Below, piece after piece: positions 5,470-28,811 of a stretch of 32,566 bases of DNA (position 1 is its first letter; each line of letters starts with the position of its first letter). The position numbers and the translations under genes were made by a program. The DNA comes from Candidatus Terraquivivens ruidianensis (lineage in GTDB: Archaea; Thermoproteota; Nitrososphaeria_A; Caldarchaeales; Wolframiiraptoraceae), in NCBI GenBank assembly GCA_023267975.1, contig JALNLA010000002.1, positions 242,004 through 274,569 of the forward strand, given 5' to 3'. Below the pieces are notes generated by a model, which did not search any database, was not told the origin of the DNA, and saw only the letters and a list, made by a program, of their open reading frames with translations.

Positions 5470-8220
5470 TCATTCAGACGTTGGTGTCGGGTAGTAGTAC
5501 TCGCCGATTGCTTTCTGTTGCCTGTCCAGCCTAGAGTCGGGTTTGTTTGCCCTTGGCCTAAACGTTTGCTGGTCCCTCCTAAATGTAACCCCCATCTCCT
5601 TAAGGAAAGCATTGAACCCGGACCTAAGGTCCATGGGCCTGCTTGCATGCCCTCTGACGCTGGGCTCGCCTGAGAAGACCATTAGTCTATTCGATGCAAA
5701 GTCCAACACCATGAGGTCATGCTCCACGAGAAAGGTGTAGGCCTGCATCTCGCGTGTTATCCTCTTCAACAACTTTGCAATCGTGTATCTTTCCTCAACG
5801 TCTAAGTAGGCGCTGGGCTCATCTATCAGGTAAATTTCGGCATCTTTCGACAGGGCTTCTGCTATCACAACTTTCTGGAGCTCACCACCGCTCAACTCCT
5901 TAACGTTCTTCTCGAGCAGTTTGTGCAGGCCTAGCGGTCTAATCAGCTCTGACTGATAAAGGTCGGTCCCGAACTTACCTCCAGCCGCTTGCCTAAGCAC
6001 GACCTCAACCTTCTCATCTCTTATCTCTGGATACTGAGGCTTGTAGCTTATCGCCCTACAAGGCAGTTGGAATTCTGCATCGGCCTTCTCAACGCCCGCT
6101 AGTATCTTTATGAAAGTTGTCTTGCCTATGCCGTTCGGGCCGACTATGCCGATTACCTCACCCGGATATATGCATCCGTCCTCGACCTCGAGCCTGAAGA
6201 CATCGTAGGTTTTCGTCATGCTAGGCCAGTAAAGCGCTGAATGGCTTTCCTCGTAAGCTTCTGTAGGGGGCTTTAGTTGGAACGATATCCTCTCGTTTCT
6301 AAACCTCACGTTCTCATCGGGTATGTAACCTTCTATGAGTATATTTATGCCCTCCCTAACACCGTAAGGACCTGCGACGATGCCGTATACCCCCGGCTCG
6401 CCATAAAGGACGAAGACCCTGTCCGACATGTAGTCGAGGATTGCGAGGTCGTGGTCTGATACAAGGGTCATGCTTCCCCACGTCACAGTCTCCCTAATTG
6501 CCGAGGCAACCCTAAACCTTTGTTTGATGTCGAGGAAGCTTGTTGGCTCGTCCAAGATGAAAGCATTGGCATCCTTCGCAAGACAGGCTGCTATCGCAAG
6601 GCGCTGGAGTTCACCACCGCTCAGCACGGAAACATCTCTATCCAAGATGTTACGGAGTTCCAGCAGGTCTATTAACCTGTTAACGCGTTCTTCCGAGCCT
6701 ATCTTTGATAGAACTGTACTAACTTTGCCCTTAACCACTTTGGGTATCATGTCAATGTATTGTGGTTTGTACGAAATTTTCACGCTACCGTTTGCGAGCC
6801 TCATCAAGTAATCCTGTATGAGCGAGCCCCTGAATACTCTTGCAACATCGTACAGAGATTTCTCCCCATCGAGCTTGCCTAAATTCGGGACGATATGACC
6901 TGCCAATATACGTATGGCCGTAGTCTTGCCTATGCCGTTCTTTCCTACGATGCCGATAACCTTTTCCTTTTCTAAGTATGGAAGCCTATAAAGCCTGAAC
7001 GAGTTTATACCGTATTGGTGCGTCAGGTCCTTGCCCAGCTCCTCGCTGAGGTTAACTATCGTGATTGCCCGGAATGGGCACTTCTTGACACAGTTATGGA
7101 CGACAAGCCCTGTTGCGTTATACGTTTCATCATCCTCAACCTCCAAGTTCATTACCAGATAGTCCTTTACATACTCAACCTTAATCGAGTCTATTGGGTG
7201 TAGCTGGTAGTTTTGTGACGGTACGATTTTTTTGTTATCCGTGAACGAAACCATGTAAACGTTTTTATTACATTCAATTGTGGCTTTGCTTACTGAGAAG
7301 AACAAACCTAGCTTAGCGGCCATCAGCTTTAGGATGTATGCATTGCCCACAGAATTACATAGGGCTACACCATTCTTTCCGACAGATAAGAATCCCGATA
7401 TGATGCCTCTCAAGAAGTCGAAGGGTGCTGACAGAAAATTCACCGGTATGCGCTTTGACCCTTCTGAATTCCCAAGGAGGTTACTTAACAAATTGGCTAA
7501 CGATTCTGAGTTGACGGTGACCAGCCCAGAGCCTTCGTGCCTAGCTTTTACACCAAAGCATCTTTCCAACAATTCTTCAGCCTTCTTCGCTAAACTTTCA
7601 CCATTGAAGCTAAATACGACTTCTCCACCTTCTACGTAACCTCTTGCGAGGTAGTAACCGAAAACTACGCCAAGCTCGAAAGTTAGTTGAAGTCGTAGCG
7701 ATTGCGCTAAACCATCATCGGTCGAGACTATCGGAATGCAAAGATAGTCGTCTTCCCTCAGTTCGGGCGGAGTTTTCCATGTGAACATGAAACCATTTCC
7801 ATTCTGACATTTAGACGCCACGAGCAGGGGATGCTCTTCGGTCAGCGCTACATGCTCTGCTATGCCGTAGACCTCTATCCTGTAAAGGGGACCGGTATAT
7901 GCCCTAACGCTCTTCGAAAGAACTGTCTTAAATCTCCCTTTATGGGTGAGTACTCTATCACCTACCCTGATTTCTTTAATGGGCTTTAAACCAGCCTCTG
8001 TTACGACCCCTGTATCGGGGTCGAGGCATATACCACACCCAATGCACAGCACTTCGTTGATGACCGGGAATCCCTTCTCGCCGAGCTTTATGGCATCTAT
8101 CTTGTTTCTCACAGGCGGGCAAAATGCTATACAGGGCTGGCCGCACTTTGTCGGCTGACAAAAGTCATAATCTATAACAGCAACTCTGTGCAACTTGGTC
8201 CACCTATAACTACATGCCAA
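5470..8220 (-). CDS. abce1: ABCE1/Rli1 ribosome-recycling ATPase interrupted by an in-frame intein
   Basis: The 916-residue precursor is ABCE1 (RNase L inhibitor) plus a 312-residue intein; the spliced protein would be 604 residues, the normal family length. The N-terminal ferredoxin part has CQPTKCGQPCIAFCP (residues 21-35), then CIGCGI (59-64) split from CVKKCPFRAI (377-386). ABC1 has Walker A GIVGKNGIGKTT (423-434), signature LSGGELQR (533-540) and Walker B FILDEPTSFLD. ABC2 has GIVGPNGIGKTT (691-702), LSGGELQK (776-783) and YLIDEPSAYLD. ABCE1 splits 70S/80S-type ribosomes after termination in archaea and eukaryotes and is essential where tested. The start is uncertain: TTG at 8220 is the furthest possible, and TTG at residue 10 (8193) gives a start closer to other archaeal ABCE1 proteins. 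The next gene upstream is pepA, 96 bases away. Confidence 0.95.
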   Translation of the reverse strand: MACSYRWTKLHRVAVIDYDFCQPTKCGQPCIAFCPPVRNKIDAIKLGEKGFPVINEVLCIGCGICLDPDTGVVTEAGLKPIKEIRVGDRVLTHKGRFKTVLSKSVRAYTGPLYRIEVYGIAEHVALTEEHPLLVASKCQNGNGFMFTWKTPPELREDDYLCIPIVSTDDGLAQSLRLQLTFELGVVFGYYLARGYVEGGEVVFSFNGESLAKKAEELLERCFGVKARHEGSGLVTVNSESLANLLSNLLGNSEGSKRIPVNFLSAPFDFLRGIISGFLSVGKNGVALCNSVGNAYILKLMAAKLGLFFSVSKATIECNKNVYMVSFTDNKKIVPSQNYQLHPIDSIKVEYVKDYLVMNLEVEDDETYNATGLVVHNCVKKCPFRAITIVNLSEELGKDLTHQYGINSFRLYRLPYLEKEKVIGIVGKNGIGKTTAIRILAGHIVPNLGKLDGEKSLYDVARVFRGSLIQDYLMRLANGSVKISYKPQYIDMIPKVVKGKVSTVLSKIGSEERVNRLIDLLELRNILDRDVSVLSGGELQRLAIAACLAKDANAFILDEPTSFLDIKQRFRVASAIRETVTWGSMTLVSDHDLAILDYMSDRVFVLYGEPGVYGIVAGPYGVREGINILIEGYIPDENVRFRNERISFQLKPPTEAYEESHSALYWPSMTKTYDVFRLEVEDGCIYPGEVIGIVGPNGIGKTTFIKILAGVEKADAEFQLPCRAISYKPQYPEIRDEKVEVVLRQAAGGKFGTDLYQSELIRPLGLHKLLEKNVKELSGGELQKVVIAEALSKDAEIYLIDEPSAYLDVEERYTIAKLLKRITREMQAYTFLVEHDLMVLDFASNRLMVFSGEPSVRGHASRPMDLRSGFNAFLKEMGVTFRRDQQTFRPRANKPDSRLDRQQKAIGEYYYPTPTSE
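7093..8028 (-). mobile_element. Class 1 intein in ABCE1 with degenerate LAGLIDADG endonuclease domain
   Basis: The intein spans precursor residues 65-376. Block A begins CLDPDTGVVTEAGLKPIKEI with nucleophile Cys65. Block B is VALTEEHPLLV with the TxxH set Thr127-His130. Block F is VMNLEVEDDETYNATG, and block G is LVVHN ending His375-Asn376, followed by extein Cys377. All residues needed for standard splicing are present. Between the splicing halves lies a DOD-type homing endonuclease region. Its first motif is ELGVVFGYYLARGYV, with Arg193 where an acidic residue is usual. A block D-like SKRIPVNFL follows, and the second motif is FLRGIISGFLSV, with Phe277 where the catalytic Asp is usual. The endonuclease is therefore probably inactive while splicing should work. 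The reading frame is intact throughout. Confidence 0.95.
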
Positions 8221-18898: not shown

Positions 18899-19762
18899 TT
18901 ACAGAAAACCTCCGACTATGAAGGAGAGTAGGGCTATGAGCATCCATGCCAAAGAGTAGTTTTTTACCCTTATGGCGTTCTTTTTGCTAGGCGACCTGAT
19001 TATCGAGACCGAGGAGTAGATGAAGCCGGCATCGCATACGAGCACGATGGGCACGTATAAGAACGAGACGTAGTCTAAGACATAAGGTAGGGGACTTAGG
19101 CATACCGCTAAAGCGTAAAGGGTCGCGCCGAGTATGGCCGCCCTTTTCTCGCCCATGCTTCTGGCTACCGACCTCACACCTCTAAGCGCGTCACCCTCGA
19201 CGTCGGATATTCCCTTGACGACCTCCCTTCCAGTGTTTGCTAAGAAGGCCAGCAGCGCGAAGATGAGTACCTTAACCCCTACCGTACTGTCGCTTAGAAG
19301 AGAACCATAAACAAAAGGTGCTACGACGTTGAAGCTCACCAGCATGTTCCCAGGTAAGCCGCTCATTTTAACTAGCGAGTTGTATAACATGGCAGATGCG
19401 TATGCTAGCAGAGCGAACGCTAAGCATACGTATGAGGTAAAAGCAGCCGCTATCAGGCCCAAGGCTCCTAGGATGAGGGAGAAAACGATGGCGCCTTTCG
19501 GCGGCACCATACCTGAGGGAATCGGCCTATTCGGTGAGTTTATGGCATCGACATGCCTATCAAAGTAGTCGTTCATTGCCATAGAGCTTCCGTTGAGGGA
19601 GAATGCTGTTACAAAAGCCAGTGATGCTTGGTATGCGGTTATGGACCTACTCTCAGAGAAAAGCACGCCTACCAGTACTGCTATAAACATCATAATTCCG
19701 TTTTGCGGCCTTGTTAGCTTAAGGTACGCGAGCGCCTTCCTGAAGTTACTTTTTTTAGACAT
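18899..19762 (-). CDS. UbiA-family digeranylgeranylglyceryl phosphate synthase
   Basis: A 287-residue UbiA prenyltransferase with about eight transmembrane helices. The first Asp-rich motif is NDYFDRHVDAINSPNRPIP (about 64-82). The second is GREVVKGISDVEGD (about 183-196). These bind the Mg2+-diphosphate of the prenyl donor. The form matches archaeal geranylgeranylglycerol-phosphate geranylgeranyltransferase (DGGGPS), which adds the second geranylgeranyl chain to make archaeal ether lipid cores in the membrane. The N-terminal basic segment followed by LTRPQNGIMMFIAVLVG is usual for the family. The start codon overlaps the end of the EndA-like gene by eight bases, implying one transcript for the two. 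Confidence 0.92.
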   Translation of the reverse strand: MSKKSNFRKALAYLKLTRPQNGIMMFIAVLVGVLFSESRSITAYQASLAFVTAFSLNGSSMAMNDYFDRHVDAINSPNRPIPSGMVPPKGAIVFSLILGALGLIAAAFTSYVCLAFALLAYASAMLYNSLVKMSGLPGNMLVSFNVVAPFVYGSLLSDSTVGVKVLIFALLAFLANTGREVVKGISDVEGDALRGVRSVARSMGEKRAAILGATLYALAVCLSPLPYVLDYVSFLYVPIVLVCDAGFIYSSVSIIRSPSKKNAIRVKNYSLAWMLIALLSFIVGGFL

Positions 19763-20306
19763 TCTTCAGGTCGACCTGGCTGGCCAGATAGTAAACAACC
19801 TCGTTTCTCCTGTCCACGACGGAAATAACCATATCTTTCTTGAGGGCCCTGCAGATGGACAGCAGATGCTTGAGCTTGCTGAGCTTAACGCTCTTGCCCT
19901 CGCTCAAAGGAGCTATTAAGTACTTTGCCGTCTCCTTTTGAAATTCACCCCTCTCGAATACTCTAAAGGCAAGGTCTGGGCTAAACCCTTCCTTGACCGT
20001 GTAGCGTCTGTTTCTTAGGTCCCTGTAGATTACATAGTCCCTCCATAACGCCTCACTCTTGCTTTCGAGGGCATAGAGGAGCTCATTGAAAGTCATATTG
20101 GAATTACCCGACATAACGAACGCCATCTTATTCTCAAGTAGGTAGAGAGCCTCCGCACAGTTGTAAACTATTATTCCGTTCTCTTTATCGAGCTGACCAT
20201 AACCCTTTGATAGGAACGCTAAAGACAGCTCTGATACTTCTGCGTAAATCTTCTCACCATCAAAGTGTAGTTCAAGCTTATTGGAAAGTGCCTCTCCCAA
20301 ACCCAT
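19755..20306 (-). CDS. tRNA-splicing endonuclease, non-catalytic (structural) subunit
   Basis: A 183-residue EndA-family protein. The C-terminal nuclease-like domain is recognised by YVIYRDLRNRRYTVKEGF (about 91-108), LAFRVFERG (112-120) and ALKKDMVISVVDRRNEVVYY (154-173). Archaeal EndA uses a Tyr, His and Lys triad. Here the Tyr of the FRVY-type segment is Phe117, the usual His-Ser pair after it is absent (EFQKETAKYL), and only the Lys (156/157) remains. This pattern matches the structural subunit of heterotetrameric archaeal EndA, as in crenarchaea, which pairs with a catalytic subunit elsewhere in the genome. That catalytic gene is not in this window. The enzyme cuts introns from pre-tRNA at bulge-helix-bulge sites. 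The gene overlaps the downstream lipid synthase gene. Confidence 0.82.
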   Translation of the reverse strand: MGLGEALSNKLELHFDGEKIYAEVSELSLAFLSKGYGQLDKENGIIVYNCAEALYLLENKMAFVMSGNSNMTFNELLYALESKSEALWRDYVIYRDLRNRRYTVKEGFSPDLAFRVFERGEFQKETAKYLIAPLSEGKSVKLSKLKHLLSICRALKKDMVISVVDRRNEVVYYLASQVDLKNV

Positions 20307-24567: not shown

Positions 24568-24691
24568 TTTTTCCTATAATATTTTACGTATTTTGATATA
24601 AGTACTTTTTTTGTTTTAAAAATTTTTTAGGGACCTATTCGGTAACGACTTAGATGCATCACCAGATTTGGAGCGCGTTGGTGAACAAAGG

Positions 24692-26368
24692 GTGCCGATA
24701 CTTAACTTGAAGTTGGAAAGGTTTTTCAAACTATTACACCAAAAGCTCGACAAAGATGGGTTGGTTGATGCCCTAACGAGCGTGGGCGTCGCTATCGAGG
24801 AGTTGGGAGCGGAATATGTTAAAGTAGAGTATAACCCTAACAGGCCAGACTTTTCTAGCCCTACAGGTCTTGCAAGAGCGCTCAAGGGAATTCTCGGAAT
24901 AGAGACGGGTATCCCAAAATTCCGTGCGCTCACACCCAAGACATTCTTGAAGGTTGAGAAGAGTGTTAAGGTTGTTAGGCCTTGGGTTGTGGCGGCTTAC
25001 GTTGAAGGTCTTAACCTATCAGCAGAAGAAATAGAAGAATTGATATCGATGCAAGAAGACCTGCACTGGGTTATAGGAAGAAACAGAAGGAAGGTAGCGA
25101 TAGGTCTACACAATGCCAGCGTCATAAGACCGCCAATAATTTACAGGGCAGTAAAGGGAGATGAGATAAGCTTCATACCGCTCAAGGGCTTCAGGAGGAT
25201 GACGCCGCAGGAGATAATCGAGCAGCATGAAATTGGCCGTAAGTATGGTCACATAGTGGCTGGAACTGGGCTTTTCCCAGTCATCATGGATTCGCATGGC
25301 GAGGTGCTTTCGCTCCCGCCTATAATAAACTCCGCTCTGACCGAGCTGACGGAGGGTACGGAGACTCTTTTCATAGACGTAACTGGTACGGACTTAGAGG
25401 CTGTAAACGGTGCTTTGAACATACTGACGGCGGCGCTGGCGGACATCGGCGGAAGAATCAGACGGGTGAGGGTAGTTTACGATAACGTGAAGATGACGAC
25501 GCCTGACCTAAGGACGAAGGTCTGGAAGCTTAAGCTAAGCTATGCCAACGATTTACTCGGCTTGAATATATCCATGAAGGATGCTGTAAGGGCATTGAAA
25601 AGGTCAAGGATCGGCGTTAAGAAGGTCAAGGGCGACACGATATTCGCTGAGGTACCGGCATACCGGTTCGACGTTATGCATCCGGTTGACTTGGTCGAAG
25701 AGATATCCATAGGTCTTGGGTATAAGAATCTCCAACCGGTTGTTCCTAAAACGTTAGGTTTCGGTAGGCATCATCCCGACACGAATTTCGAGGACGTGTG
25801 CAGAGAAATCATGTTCGGGCTCGGCTTTACAGAGGTTATAAATTTCACACTCTCTAACAGCGTAAGGGATTATCGTTGGATGAAGATTGAGCCGCAGAAT
25901 CCTGTAAGGGTTCTTAATCCAGTCTCGGCCGAGTACGACATACTGAGGACATGGCTCCTTCCCGGTCTGCTCTACAACCTAGCGATGAATAAACATAGTC
26001 CTTATCCACACAGGCTTTTTGAGATAGGCGATGTGTTAGCTGTTGATGAGTCTTTCGACGAAGGTGCTAGGAGAGAGGTGAAGCTGGCGCTGGTGAGCTC
26101 CCATGCGGACACGTCATTCTCAGAGGTTAAATCTATCGCAGAGGAGTTCCTGAGAAGCCTCGGCTTAAAGGAATGGTGTCTGAAGGAAGTTGAGCATGCC
26201 AGCTTTATCGAAGGAAGGGTTGCCGAGATAGAGGTCTATGGCGTTAATATAGGGATAATGGGCGAGATAAGCCCAGAAGTCTTGGAGGCCTTTGACATAA
26301 CAATGCCCGTAAGCGCAATCGAAATAGAGTTGCAGAAAGTTCGCGGTTTACTCAACAAAGCGCAGTAA
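24692..26368 (+). CDS. pheT: Phenylalanyl-tRNA synthetase beta subunit
   Basis: A 558-residue archaeal-type PheT. The B3/B4 region includes LHWVIGRNRRKVAIGLHNAS and GTGLFPVIMDSHGEVLSLPP. The B5 region includes SYANDLLGLNISMKDAVRAL and the B6/B7 core IGLGYKNLQPVVPKTLGFGR and GLGFTEVINFTLSN. It lacks the bacterial N-terminal OB domain and C-terminal FDX-ACB, as expected for archaea. I place the start at GTG 24692, giving MPILNLKLERFFKLL, which fits the family N-terminus. GGTGA (24681-24685) stands six bases before it as a Shine-Dalgarno. A TTG at 24668 would add eight residues. The gene has its own A/T-rich promoter region (about 24610-24630). Confidence 0.94.
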   Translation: MPILNLKLERFFKLLHQKLDKDGLVDALTSVGVAIEELGAEYVKVEYNPNRPDFSSPTGLARALKGILGIETGIPKFRALTPKTFLKVEKSVKVVRPWVVAAYVEGLNLSAEEIEELISMQEDLHWVIGRNRRKVAIGLHNASVIRPPIIYRAVKGDEISFIPLKGFRRMTPQEIIEQHEIGRKYGHIVAGTGLFPVIMDSHGEVLSLPPIINSALTELTEGTETLFIDVTGTDLEAVNGALNILTAALADIGGRIRRVRVVYDNVKMTTPDLRTKVWKLKLSYANDLLGLNISMKDAVRALKRSRIGVKKVKGDTIFAEVPAYRFDVMHPVDLVEEISIGLGYKNLQPVVPKTLGFGRHHPDTNFEDVCREIMFGLGFTEVINFTLSNSVRDYRWMKIEPQNPVRVLNPVSAEYDILRTWLLPGLLYNLAMNKHSPYPHRLFEIGDVLAVDESFDEGARREVKLALVSSHADTSFSEVKSIAEEFLRSLGLKEWCLKEVEHASFIEGRVAEIEVYGVNIGIMGEISPEVLEAFDITMPVSAIEIELQKVRGLLNKAQ

Positions 26369-26397
26369 CGGTTTTAAGTACGCTCGGCGATTTTAAT

Positions 26398-26482
26398 GTT
26401 GCCCCACCATACCTTGAGCCGCACCGAGGAAGGGTTGCACCCTGCTCTATGGGGTGCGGTGTTCGTGGTGGGGCAAAACCCG
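26398..26482 (+). ncRNA. Structured small RNA candidate between pheT and tyrS
   Basis: TGCCCCACCA (26400-26409) and TGGTGGGGCA (26466-26475) form a perfect 10-bp stem. Inside it, CCGCACC (26419-26425) pairs with GGTGCGG (26453-26459). An apical GGGT-TGC-ACCC (26432-26442) adds a small hairpin. Asymmetric internal loops separate the helices (9 and 6 bases in the lower loop). TTTTAAG at 26372-26378 is a TATA-like box about 26 bases before 26400, so transcription could start at the first stem base; a T-rich stretch (26488-26495) follows. No open reading frame is present. The shape recalls a single-hairpin H/ACA guide with a pocket-like internal loop, but a proper ACA and kink-turn are not evident. 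Identity is unknown. Confidence 0.6.
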
Positions 26483-26546
26483 ATACATTATTTTTAAATA
26501 TTCACGTAGCAGGTAGAGGCAGGGGTTTAGAAGGGAAGGGATTGAT

Positions 26547-27638
26547 TTGGACGTCGATACAAGGATGGAGCTGATCACTAGGCCACCGACCGAAGAGGTG
26601 ATAACGCTTCAGGAGTTGAGGAAGCTCCTTGAGACGAATGATAGGCCCGTCGCTTATGACGGGTTTGAGCCGAGCGGTCTTGCCCACATACCCTTCGCGA
26701 TACTCAGAGCGATAAAGCTGAAGGATATGCTGGACGCCGGTTGTAGGTTCAAGCTGTTGCTTGCCGACTGGCACGCGATGGTAAACAAGAAGATGGGCGG
26801 TGACCTAGAGAAGATAAGGAAGGTCGGCGAATACCTAATCGAGGTTTGGAAAGCCTCTGGCATAGACGTCAGCAAAGTAGAACTCGTTTGGGCTAACGAC
26901 GTTGCAGCAGACAAGGAATACTGGAAGCTCGTCATAAATGTGGCGAAGGAAGCTACGCTCAAGAGATTTCTTAGGTGCCTTCCGATAATGGGCAGGCAGG
27001 AGGGCGAACTTCAGGAGGCTGCCCAGCTCTTCTACCCAGCCATGCAGGTCGCTGATATATTCTATCTTGGGGTTGACATATGCCAACTTGGCCTTGACCA
27101 GAGAAGGGCCAATATACTTGCAAGGGAGATTGCTCCAAAGCTTGGGTTATCGAAGCCGGTAGCAGTCCACCATCATATGCTCATGAGCCTGACGGGACCG
27201 GTAGGAGCCAAGGGTCTTGACGACGATACCGAGATAGACGTACAAATAAGCTCAAAGATGAGTAAGAGCATGCCCGAGACTAGCATATACGTACACGACA
27301 CCAGAGAGGTACTCGAGGAAAAGGTGATGAGAGCTTACTGTCCACCGAAAGACACGAAGTCGAACCCGATAATAGAGTACTGCAAGTACATAATATTTCC
27401 GAGGCTAGGGAAGCTAGGCATAGAAAGACCGCAAAAATACGGTGGAGACGTGCTCTATGAAAGTTTTGAACAACTAAGGAAAGATTACGAACTTGGCCAG
27501 ATTCATCCCTTAGACCTAAAAAGGGCGGTCGTGGAGGCGCTCGACAGGATACTCGAGCCGATAAGGGCATATTTTGAAAGCAACCAAAAAGCTAAAGAGC
27601 TTTTTGAAAGAGTCTCAAGCTACGAGATTACTAGGTGA
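26547..27638 (+). CDS. tyrS: Tyrosyl-tRNA synthetase, archaeal type
   Basis: A 363-residue class I synthetase. The ATP-binding first signature is DGFEPSGLAHIPFAILRA, where HIPF stands for the usual HIGH-like motif. LLLADWHAMVNKKMGGDLEK and YPAMQVADIFYLGVDICQLG form the tyrosine pocket. SSKMSKSMPETSIYV contains the KMSKS loop. The compact C-terminal anticodon domain matches archaeal/eukaryotic TyrRS. It charges tRNA-Tyr. The start may be TTG 26547 or ATG 26565 (Met7); no strong Shine-Dalgarno decides. A TATA-like box (TTTTTAAATA, 26489-26498) follows the RNA candidate and predicts transcription near 26519. The 3' end overlaps the convergent GT-C-like gene by 24 bases. Confidence 0.93.
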   Translation: MDVDTRMELITRPPTEEVITLQELRKLLETNDRPVAYDGFEPSGLAHIPFAILRAIKLKDMLDAGCRFKLLLADWHAMVNKKMGGDLEKIRKVGEYLIEVWKASGIDVSKVELVWANDVAADKEYWKLVINVAKEATLKRFLRCLPIMGRQEGELQEAAQLFYPAMQVADIFYLGVDICQLGLDQRRANILAREIAPKLGLSKPVAVHHHMLMSLTGPVGAKGLDDDTEIDVQISSKMSKSMPETSIYVHDTREVLEEKVMRAYCPPKDTKSNPIIEYCKYIIFPRLGKLGIERPQKYGGDVLYESFEQLRKDYELGQIHPLDLKRAVVEALDRILEPIRAYFESNQKAKELFERVSSYEITR

Positions 27639-28811
27639 TTTCCTGAAAATCATATACAATGAATAAAGGACGAATCCTAGGAGGAGGAAGGACCTAGTAA
27701 TTGCCATCCACTGTATGGGGGAGCTTATGCCCCACGACTCGACCGTATATTCTATGCCCAATATACCCTGTATGAACCTTGAGAATCCGACCACTATTAT
27801 CGCAGAGTTCAAAACCTCAAAGAATATGAAGAATGGATACGGCGCTACGGCCAGAAGCGTAAAGAAAGGAAGGAGTACCATGTTCATCTGGGGTGTGTAA
27901 ACATAGTTAGTAAACAGGAACCAGGCCATAACTAACCAAGAGGTTAGCAGAATTTTACCATACTCTGGAAGCGAGGTTTTACGTAGTACAGTCAGTGGCA
28001 GGACGGCTAGTATGGGCATCAACCCTGCCGAAAGCACTCTAGCGTTGGGATCAAACATATCAAACAACAGTATCTGCCAGTTGCACTCCACGTACCAAGA
28101 AGCATGGTATTCCCAAAACCTTAGCCAATTGCTGGGATTCAATAGGATGGCTGGAAGATTTACGAGAAAATAGGTGGTGAGGCCTACGATGACGAATTTC
28201 ATTTTTCTTCTAAAATCACCATGCGTTATGAGTACAGCAATCGAGGGAATAGCCGTTATCAGGTTCGATGCTGCAGAAATCCCGAAGAAGATGCCAGCAG
28301 ACATAGACTTGTCCTCGATGGATAACCTGATTGCCCTTACCATGAAGTAGACCCCTAAGATGTACCAGTTAAGGAGGTTCATGAAGAGCATGCTCGGCGT
28401 GATTATGAAGTACGCATAAATCCTTCTCTTATCAGTGCCACATAGCTCGCACAACTTTCCAACCTCTAAGGTCGTTAGGAACGTTACAAGGAGCAAGATT
28501 GTCGAGGTGATTGTGTAGTAAAGGAATAGGGCAGGGTAGTATCCTTCAGTTAAGAAGCTTGCCATGAGGCCGGACGCGTAGGCCAAGGCAGCAGTTATTA
28601 CTGGGTACTCGAAGAAGACCTCGAGGTATGGAATTTTTGGTGGAAACCCCTCCAACCTTACTTGGTATACCGAGATTATATCGCTGTAAACATGGCCACC
28701 ACCATATGGTATGTGAAGCCAGAAGCAGATAAGAAACACGATAATGGTTGCAAGTAAAAGCGCATAACGTTCCTCCAGCTCTTTGCCCATCAGAGTTTTA
28801 AATTTGCTCAA
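27615..28811 (-). CDS. Polytopic membrane protein, GT-C glycosyltransferase-like
   Basis: A 398-residue protein with about ten hydrophobic helices. After the first helix, GGGHVYSDIISVYQVRLEG and YLEVFFEYPVITAALAY resemble the first loop of GT-C enzymes (GT87 or DUF2029 type), where an Asp near the start of a periplasmic loop is catalytic; Asp in YSD is the candidate. Such enzymes use lipid-linked sugars on the outer face of the membrane. The assignment is based on topology and motif resemblance only. The TTG at 28811 is placed about 26 bases from a shared GTATAC element and would give a leaderless transcript; ATG at 28790 is an alternative. It overlaps the end of tyrS. Confidence 0.7.
   Translation of the reverse strand: MSKFKTLMGKELEERYALLLATIIVFLICFWLHIPYGGGHVYSDIISVYQVRLEGFPPKIPYLEVFFEYPVITAALAYASGLMASFLTEGYYPALFLYYTITSTILLLVTFLTTLEVGKLCELCGTDKRRIYAYFIITPSMLFMNLLNWYILGVYFMVRAIRLSIEDKSMSAGIFFGISAASNLITAIPSIAVLITHGDFRRKMKFVIVGLTTYFLVNLPAILLNPSNWLRFWEYHASWYVECNWQILLFDMFDPNARVLSAGLMPILAVLPLTVLRKTSLPEYGKILLTSWLVMAWFLFTNYVYTPQMNMVLLPFFTLLAVAPYPFFIFFEVLNSAIIVVGFSRFIQGILGIEYTVESWGISSPIQWMAITRSFLLLGFVLYSLYMIFRKSPSNLVA

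Follow-up and report, generated by a model that had tools for sequence, protein, structure and literature searches.

A predicted single-hairpin archaeal box H/ACA guide RNA between pheT and tyrS in the Caldarchaeales, with a candidate target in helix 69 of the 23S rRNA

The window, that is, the whole stretch of 32,566 nucleotides analyzed here (G000:C2:242004-274569), belongs to a genome of 1.30 Mb which, judged by its sequence, is that of a Ca. Terraquivivens-like member of the Caldarchaeales ('Aigarchaeota'). The nearest relatives of its tyrS are found in Ca. Terraquivivens (90% identity), followed by those in Pelearchaeum, HR01, Wolframiiraptor, and Geocrenenecus. Immediately upstream of tyrS lies pheT, and a strong hairpin, the subject of this report, occupies the intergenic region between the two (Table 1). 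Elsewhere in the window, a 398-aa ORF (27615-28811, minus strand), which has no match in Pfam and NCBIfam searches, shares 24 bases with the 3' terminus of tyrS; a tRNA-intron endonuclease gene is located at 19755-20306, and many tRNA genes of the genome, for example that of tRNA-Tyr, have introns in the anticodon region. Further, an ABCE1/RLI-type ATPase of 916 aa (5470-8220, minus strand; equivalog PRK13409) bears an insertion of about 300 residues between its Fer4 part (residues 12-39) and residue 376, in which residues 106-376 give a weak intein-splicing match that falls below the curated cut-off (Pfam PF14890, E 8e-6); this insertion is a probable intein.

An earlier note, made from the letters of the window alone, had described at this locus a structured RNA with a perfect 10-bp outer stem, a 7-bp inner stem, and an apical hairpin. 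All three are present in the fold: the outer stem pairs UGCCCCACCA with UGGUGGGGCA (26400-26409/26466-26475), the inner stem joins 26419-26425 to 26453-26459 and is extended by a closing G-U pair (G418-U460, last three digits of the coordinates), and the pocket that the note had placed at 26410-26418 and 26460-26465 is correct to within one base. The minimum free energy of the 79 nt from 26400 to 26478 is -44.8 kcal/mol, as against -29.1 +/- 3.2 in dinucleotide shuffles (z = -4.9), and none of 200 shuffles reaches so low a value.

Table 1. Features of the pheT-tyrS intergenic region and its flanking genes (positions within the window)
Feature	Position	Strand	Remarks
pheT, conserved upstream neighbor	24668..26368	+	NCBIfam equivalog TIGR00471
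Predicted TATA box of the RNA gene, TTTTAAG, 22-28 nt before 26400	26372..26378	+	A+T-rich box in 27/27 aligned relatives
Predicted H/ACA guide RNA gene, ends approximate	26400..26478	+	
Lower stem, 5' strand, GCCCCACCA, 9 bp with 26466-26474	26401..26409	+	compensatory changes in 6/10 helix pairs
Predicted 5' guide arm, UACCUUGA, able to pair with 23S UUAAGGUA, one pair being G-U	26410..26417	+	
Upper ('GA') stem, 5' strand, including the closing G of the conserved G-U	26418..26425	+	both-side changes in 6/8 pairs
k-turn, non-bulged strand, GA	26426..26427	+	GA in nearly all relatives
Apical hairpin, AGGG...CCCU	26431..26443	+	varies among relatives
k-turn, 3-nt bulge UAU plus GG	26448..26452	+	GA in 23/27 relatives
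Upper stem, 3' strand, last base the closing U	26453..26460	+	
Predicted 3' guide arm, GUUCG	26461..26465	+	GUUAG, GUUGG, or GUCGG in relatives
Lower stem, 3' strand, UGGUGGGGC	26466..26474	+	
ANA box AAA, 14 nt below the closing pair	26475..26477	+	ACA or AUA in most relatives
TTTTTAAATATT, T-rich, putative tyrS TATA box and/or end of the RNA gene	26491..26502	+	conserved in the genus
tyrS, conserved neighbor	26547..27638	+	NCBIfam equivalog PRK08560

By DNA comparison, each of the five other genomes of the genus carries the element, and HR01 gives a weak match; a copy from Pelearchaeum, in which the stems have changed yet remain complementary, was added via the regions upstream of tyrS. A first covariance model, built from nine sequences, finds exactly one copy in each of 27 of the 44 genomes of the order, distributed over two families, and in all, the RNA is a single-copy gene in 28 Caldarchaeales genomes of these families. 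The earlier note had staked its fold on compensatory base changes in relatives, and such changes are present: in the 27 aligned sequences, 12 of the 20 pairs are changed on both sides. Cells with changes on both sides number 70, against 20 +/- 4 in shuffles and at most 15 in slid controls, and the main covariation measures reach the observed level in 0-1 of 500 shuffles, though this 27-sequence alignment, having been built with the covariance model, leans towards the structure. A MAFFT alignment of the nine sequences has five pairs in which both partners differ, where slid controls have 0-1.

The second covariance model, which was derived from the 27 sequences and contains no information on tyrS or pheT, has hits in 64 genomes out of the 300 of Thermoproteota. 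Thirty-eight of the loci lie outside the two families, and in 23 of these 38, tyrS and/or pheT is found no more than about 2 kb away, where about 0.3 loci would be expected by chance, a figure to be read with the related genomes not being independent of each other. The arrangement of the window, with pheT, the RNA, and tyrS in this order on one strand, recurs in four distant genomes. In most members of Wolframiiraptor, an HAD-like gene stands upstream of the RNA instead of pheT. The distant orthologues have a 5' arm ending in AGA before the closing G and a 3' arm of GUUAG or GUCAG. Two of the distant loci, both linked to tyrS, match the Rfam family HgcG/Pab40 on its third hairpin, at 35.9-36.9 bits and thus below its cut-off of 77 bits.

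Productive archaeal H/ACA guides obey a spacing rule, with exactly 10 layers and 14-15 nt, in the layouts '10/5/9' or '10/6/9' (PMC4652768). In the window, the closing G-U, the seven base pairs, and two G.A-type layers add up to 10 layers below a k-turn with a 3-nt bulge; the 3' arm has 5 nt, the lower stem 9 bp, and 14 nt separate the closing pair from the box, giving 10/5/9. The same layout is found in Pelearchaeum and Caldarchaeum, and Wolframiiraptor, Geocrenenecus, and their allies have 10/6/9. In nearly all relatives, the ANA box comes immediately after the lower stem, 14 nt from the closing pair and 15 in some. The stem-pocket-stem hairpin is backed by covariation, and the k-turn is present as well, with the window copy bearing GG where most relatives have GA (one layer being G.G). 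The earlier note had held that the fold only loosely recalls a single-hairpin H/ACA guide; the comparison was right in the type of fold, and it extends to the k-turn, the ANA box, the spacing, and a canonical guide-target duplex in the distant orthologues, such that 'only loosely' understated the likeness. With high confidence we assign the RNA, from these sequence features, to the archaeal box H/ACA guide sRNAs with a single hairpin. An Rfam scan of the region yields only chance matches, the gathering score being reached by tRNA-Leu alone, and the window copy has no match to HgcG (RF00064). The family is a new one within a known class, absent from Rfam, and not a new kind of system.

To find its target, the arms of the distant orthologues were scanned in strict two-base geometry against 341 conserved uridines of the 23S rRNA. 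The site CUGAC[U-C]UCUUAA scores 20.7 and ranks first among the 341, the next reaching 14.3 (mean 2.6, sd 2.6), and both arms pair with it in the canonical geometry, leaving UN unpaired between them. The uridine of CUGAC[U-C] corresponds to position 1921 of E. coli and to Psi2264 of yeast in helix 69, where the yeast numbering is anchored by the equivalence of 2258/2260 with E. coli 1915/1917. A scan with the Caldarchaeales guides, which allowed flexible geometry, covered conserved uridines of 16S and 23S, and had the 23S introns spliced out, again places the helix 69 site first (26.8, with the next independent site at 20.2), and permuted guides equal this score in 3 of 60 trials. Here, the 5' arm (CCUUAA before the closing G) pairs with UUAAGG, which lies two bases beyond the canonical position and leaves a spacer of 4 nt instead of 2 nt; even a third unpaired base is deemed unfavorable (PMC4652768). 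With this two-base shift, the modified base in the Caldarchaeales may be U1921 or possibly U1923. Several 23S genes carry introns in this very region: in 7 of 13 Caldarchaeales genes, introns of 44-1133 nt lie within the predicted target CUCUUAA/GG (helix 71, the slash marking the junction), and some distant genomes have introns there as well. The predicted target is split in two by the intron in C. subterraneum and HR01, and would pair in full only once spliced. Given membership of the H/ACA class, the pairing makes it probable that the RNA acts at helix 69 in the window organism.

An H/ACA guide by structure might, however, have been retargeted in the Caldarchaeales, to another uridine of rRNA or tRNA or to an mRNA, or have become inactive, with the complementarity to helix 69/71 persisting as an ancestral remnant. 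The register shift of the 5' arm speaks for this, as do the 3' arm of the window genus (GUUCG), which has one C-U mismatch to CUGAC, and the 5' arm of Wolframiiraptor (CGUUUG), which does not pair with the helix 69/71 site at all and raises the possibility that the RNA of that genus, at least, was retargeted. Against it, the other 3' arms of the Caldarchaeales (GUUAG, GUUGG, and GUCGG), found in most genera, keep their pairing with CUGAC, and all 8 positions of the window's 5' arm are paired in the duplex with UUAAGGUA (-7.9 kcal/mol). Moreover, when the Caldarchaeales guides are scanned in strict UN geometry, neither 16S nor 23S offers a full canonical target, and a scan of the 30 tRNAs of the window genome with the guide arms finds none either. 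We hold retargeting or inactivity to be unlikely, if by no means negligible. Two specific candidates were rejected: a guide for Psi35 of pre-tRNA-Tyr of the Sulfolobus type, as the arms of the present RNA do not pair with the anticodon region of tRNA-Tyr around U35 (GGCUG[UA]GGGUCU), and a pairing of the Wolframiiraptor guides with the unspliced intron junction, as one intron-less member has an identical guide. Within the helix 69 reading, the two registers of the Caldarchaeales arms, the 3' arm fitting U1921 and the 5' arm U1923, could mean that one RNA with a 4-nt spacer either modifies both uridines, which correspond to Psi2264 and Psi2266 of yeast, or binds the spliced junction of helix 69/71 and leaves it unmodified; such a geometry would be outside the published productive set, and we regard this proposal as quite doubtful.

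Its place between pheT and tyrS could alternatively make the hairpin a cis-acting element, either a tyrS leader or a pheT 3' UTR, for instance a k-turn through which L7Ae would control the synthetase genes, and L7Ae is indeed known to regulate mRNAs via k-turns (PMC5539422). The earlier note had instead taken the RNA to be probably its own gene behind a TATA-like box, and this is supported. The 7-nt segment from -28 to -22 of the RNA start is 89% A+T across the 27 relatives, a level attained by 0 of 2000 shuffles, and in all copies the RNA is free of overlap with any long ORF. In most genomes it lies 11-67 nt downstream of pheT; depending on the genome, tyrS follows it in the same orientation, converges on it, or is non-adjacent, being absent from the RNA locus or convergent in several genera, and in C. 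subterraneum the RNA is not upstream of tyrS. The T-rich stretch that the earlier note had seen beyond the hairpin is likewise real: TTTTTAAATATT fits as a TATA box of tyrS, separate from that of the RNA, and may also serve as the terminator of the RNA gene. The shared TATA-like box, the structure kept through compensatory changes, and the variable position of tyrS thus support a separate predicted transcription unit rather than a tyrS leader; with the pocket and the ANA box having no role in a cis element, we consider such an element very improbable. A mobile-element inverted repeat or chance hairpin, suggested by the strength of the inverted repeat and by a weak score on the reverse strand (which is due to the palindrome-like lower stem), is ruled out by the single copy per genome, the conserved pocket and spacing, the covariation, and the synteny, and a phage search gives no match.

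We therefore favor, with the confidence due to a probable rather than a secure reading, a single-hairpin H/ACA guide with its own TATA promoter and a predicted uridine target in helix 69. Transcribed from that promoter, the sRNA would be bound, as expected of its class, by L7Ae through the k-turn and by Cbf5-Nop10-Gar1 through its lower stem and its ANA box. The arms of the pocket are predicted from their pairing to hold CUGAC...UUAAGG of helix 69/71 of the 23S rRNA, and a uridine on the 3' side of helix 69 would thereby be converted to pseudouridine, namely U1921 in E. coli numbering (2051 in the organism's own 23S), or possibly U1923.

Helix 69 forms a ribosomal bridge, and its modification matters for translation. 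To our knowledge, archaeal H/ACA guides from groups other than the Euryarchaea and Pyrobaculum are very few, and a literature search found none for the Caldarchaeales. The present work yields a tyrS/pheT-linked family spread across much of the Thermoproteota, with a covariance model and a predicted target in helix 69. If that target is true, it would provide an archaeal counterpart of a helix 69 pseudouridine known from eukaryotes.

Among known systems, the RNA most resembles hairpin III of HgcG/Pab40/Pf7/Afu4 (RF00064), which guides the equivalent of Psi1915 (U2016 in P. abyssi), also in helix 69. The two have in common the layout of the hairpin, a GAG/UGA k-turn, and a G-U closing pair followed on the 3' side by GUGUUA. 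They differ in that RF00064 has three hairpins and the present RNA a single one, and in that the arms of the latter fit U1921, six bases further on. A separate H/ACA-like hairpin away from tyrS (locus L215, 157-231) has arms GGGUCA and GUUAC that fit GUAAC[U1915]UGACCC, like hairpin III of Pab40. For one hairpin serving two helix 69 uridines two bases apart, there is a precedent in Hvo2 of Haloferax volcanii, which serves as the guide for 1956 and 1958 (E. coli 1915 and 1917) and in one of the two registers has a spacer that departs from the canonical one, though it is euryarchaeal and acts on other uridines. In yeast, U1921 and U1923 have their eukaryotic counterparts in Psi2264 and Psi2266, the targets of snR3 and snR84, two-hairpin snoRNAs that lack a k-turn and for which we claim no homology to the present RNA. 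Finally, the sole H/ACA sRNA of Nanoarchaeum equitans was detected by RNA-Seq, has its own promoter, and lies between the gene for tyrosyl-tRNA synthetase and another gene (PMC3491384). It has two hairpins and 159 nt, and is likened to the present RNA by location; linkage to tyrS in N. equitans too suggests that this arrangement of genes is very old.
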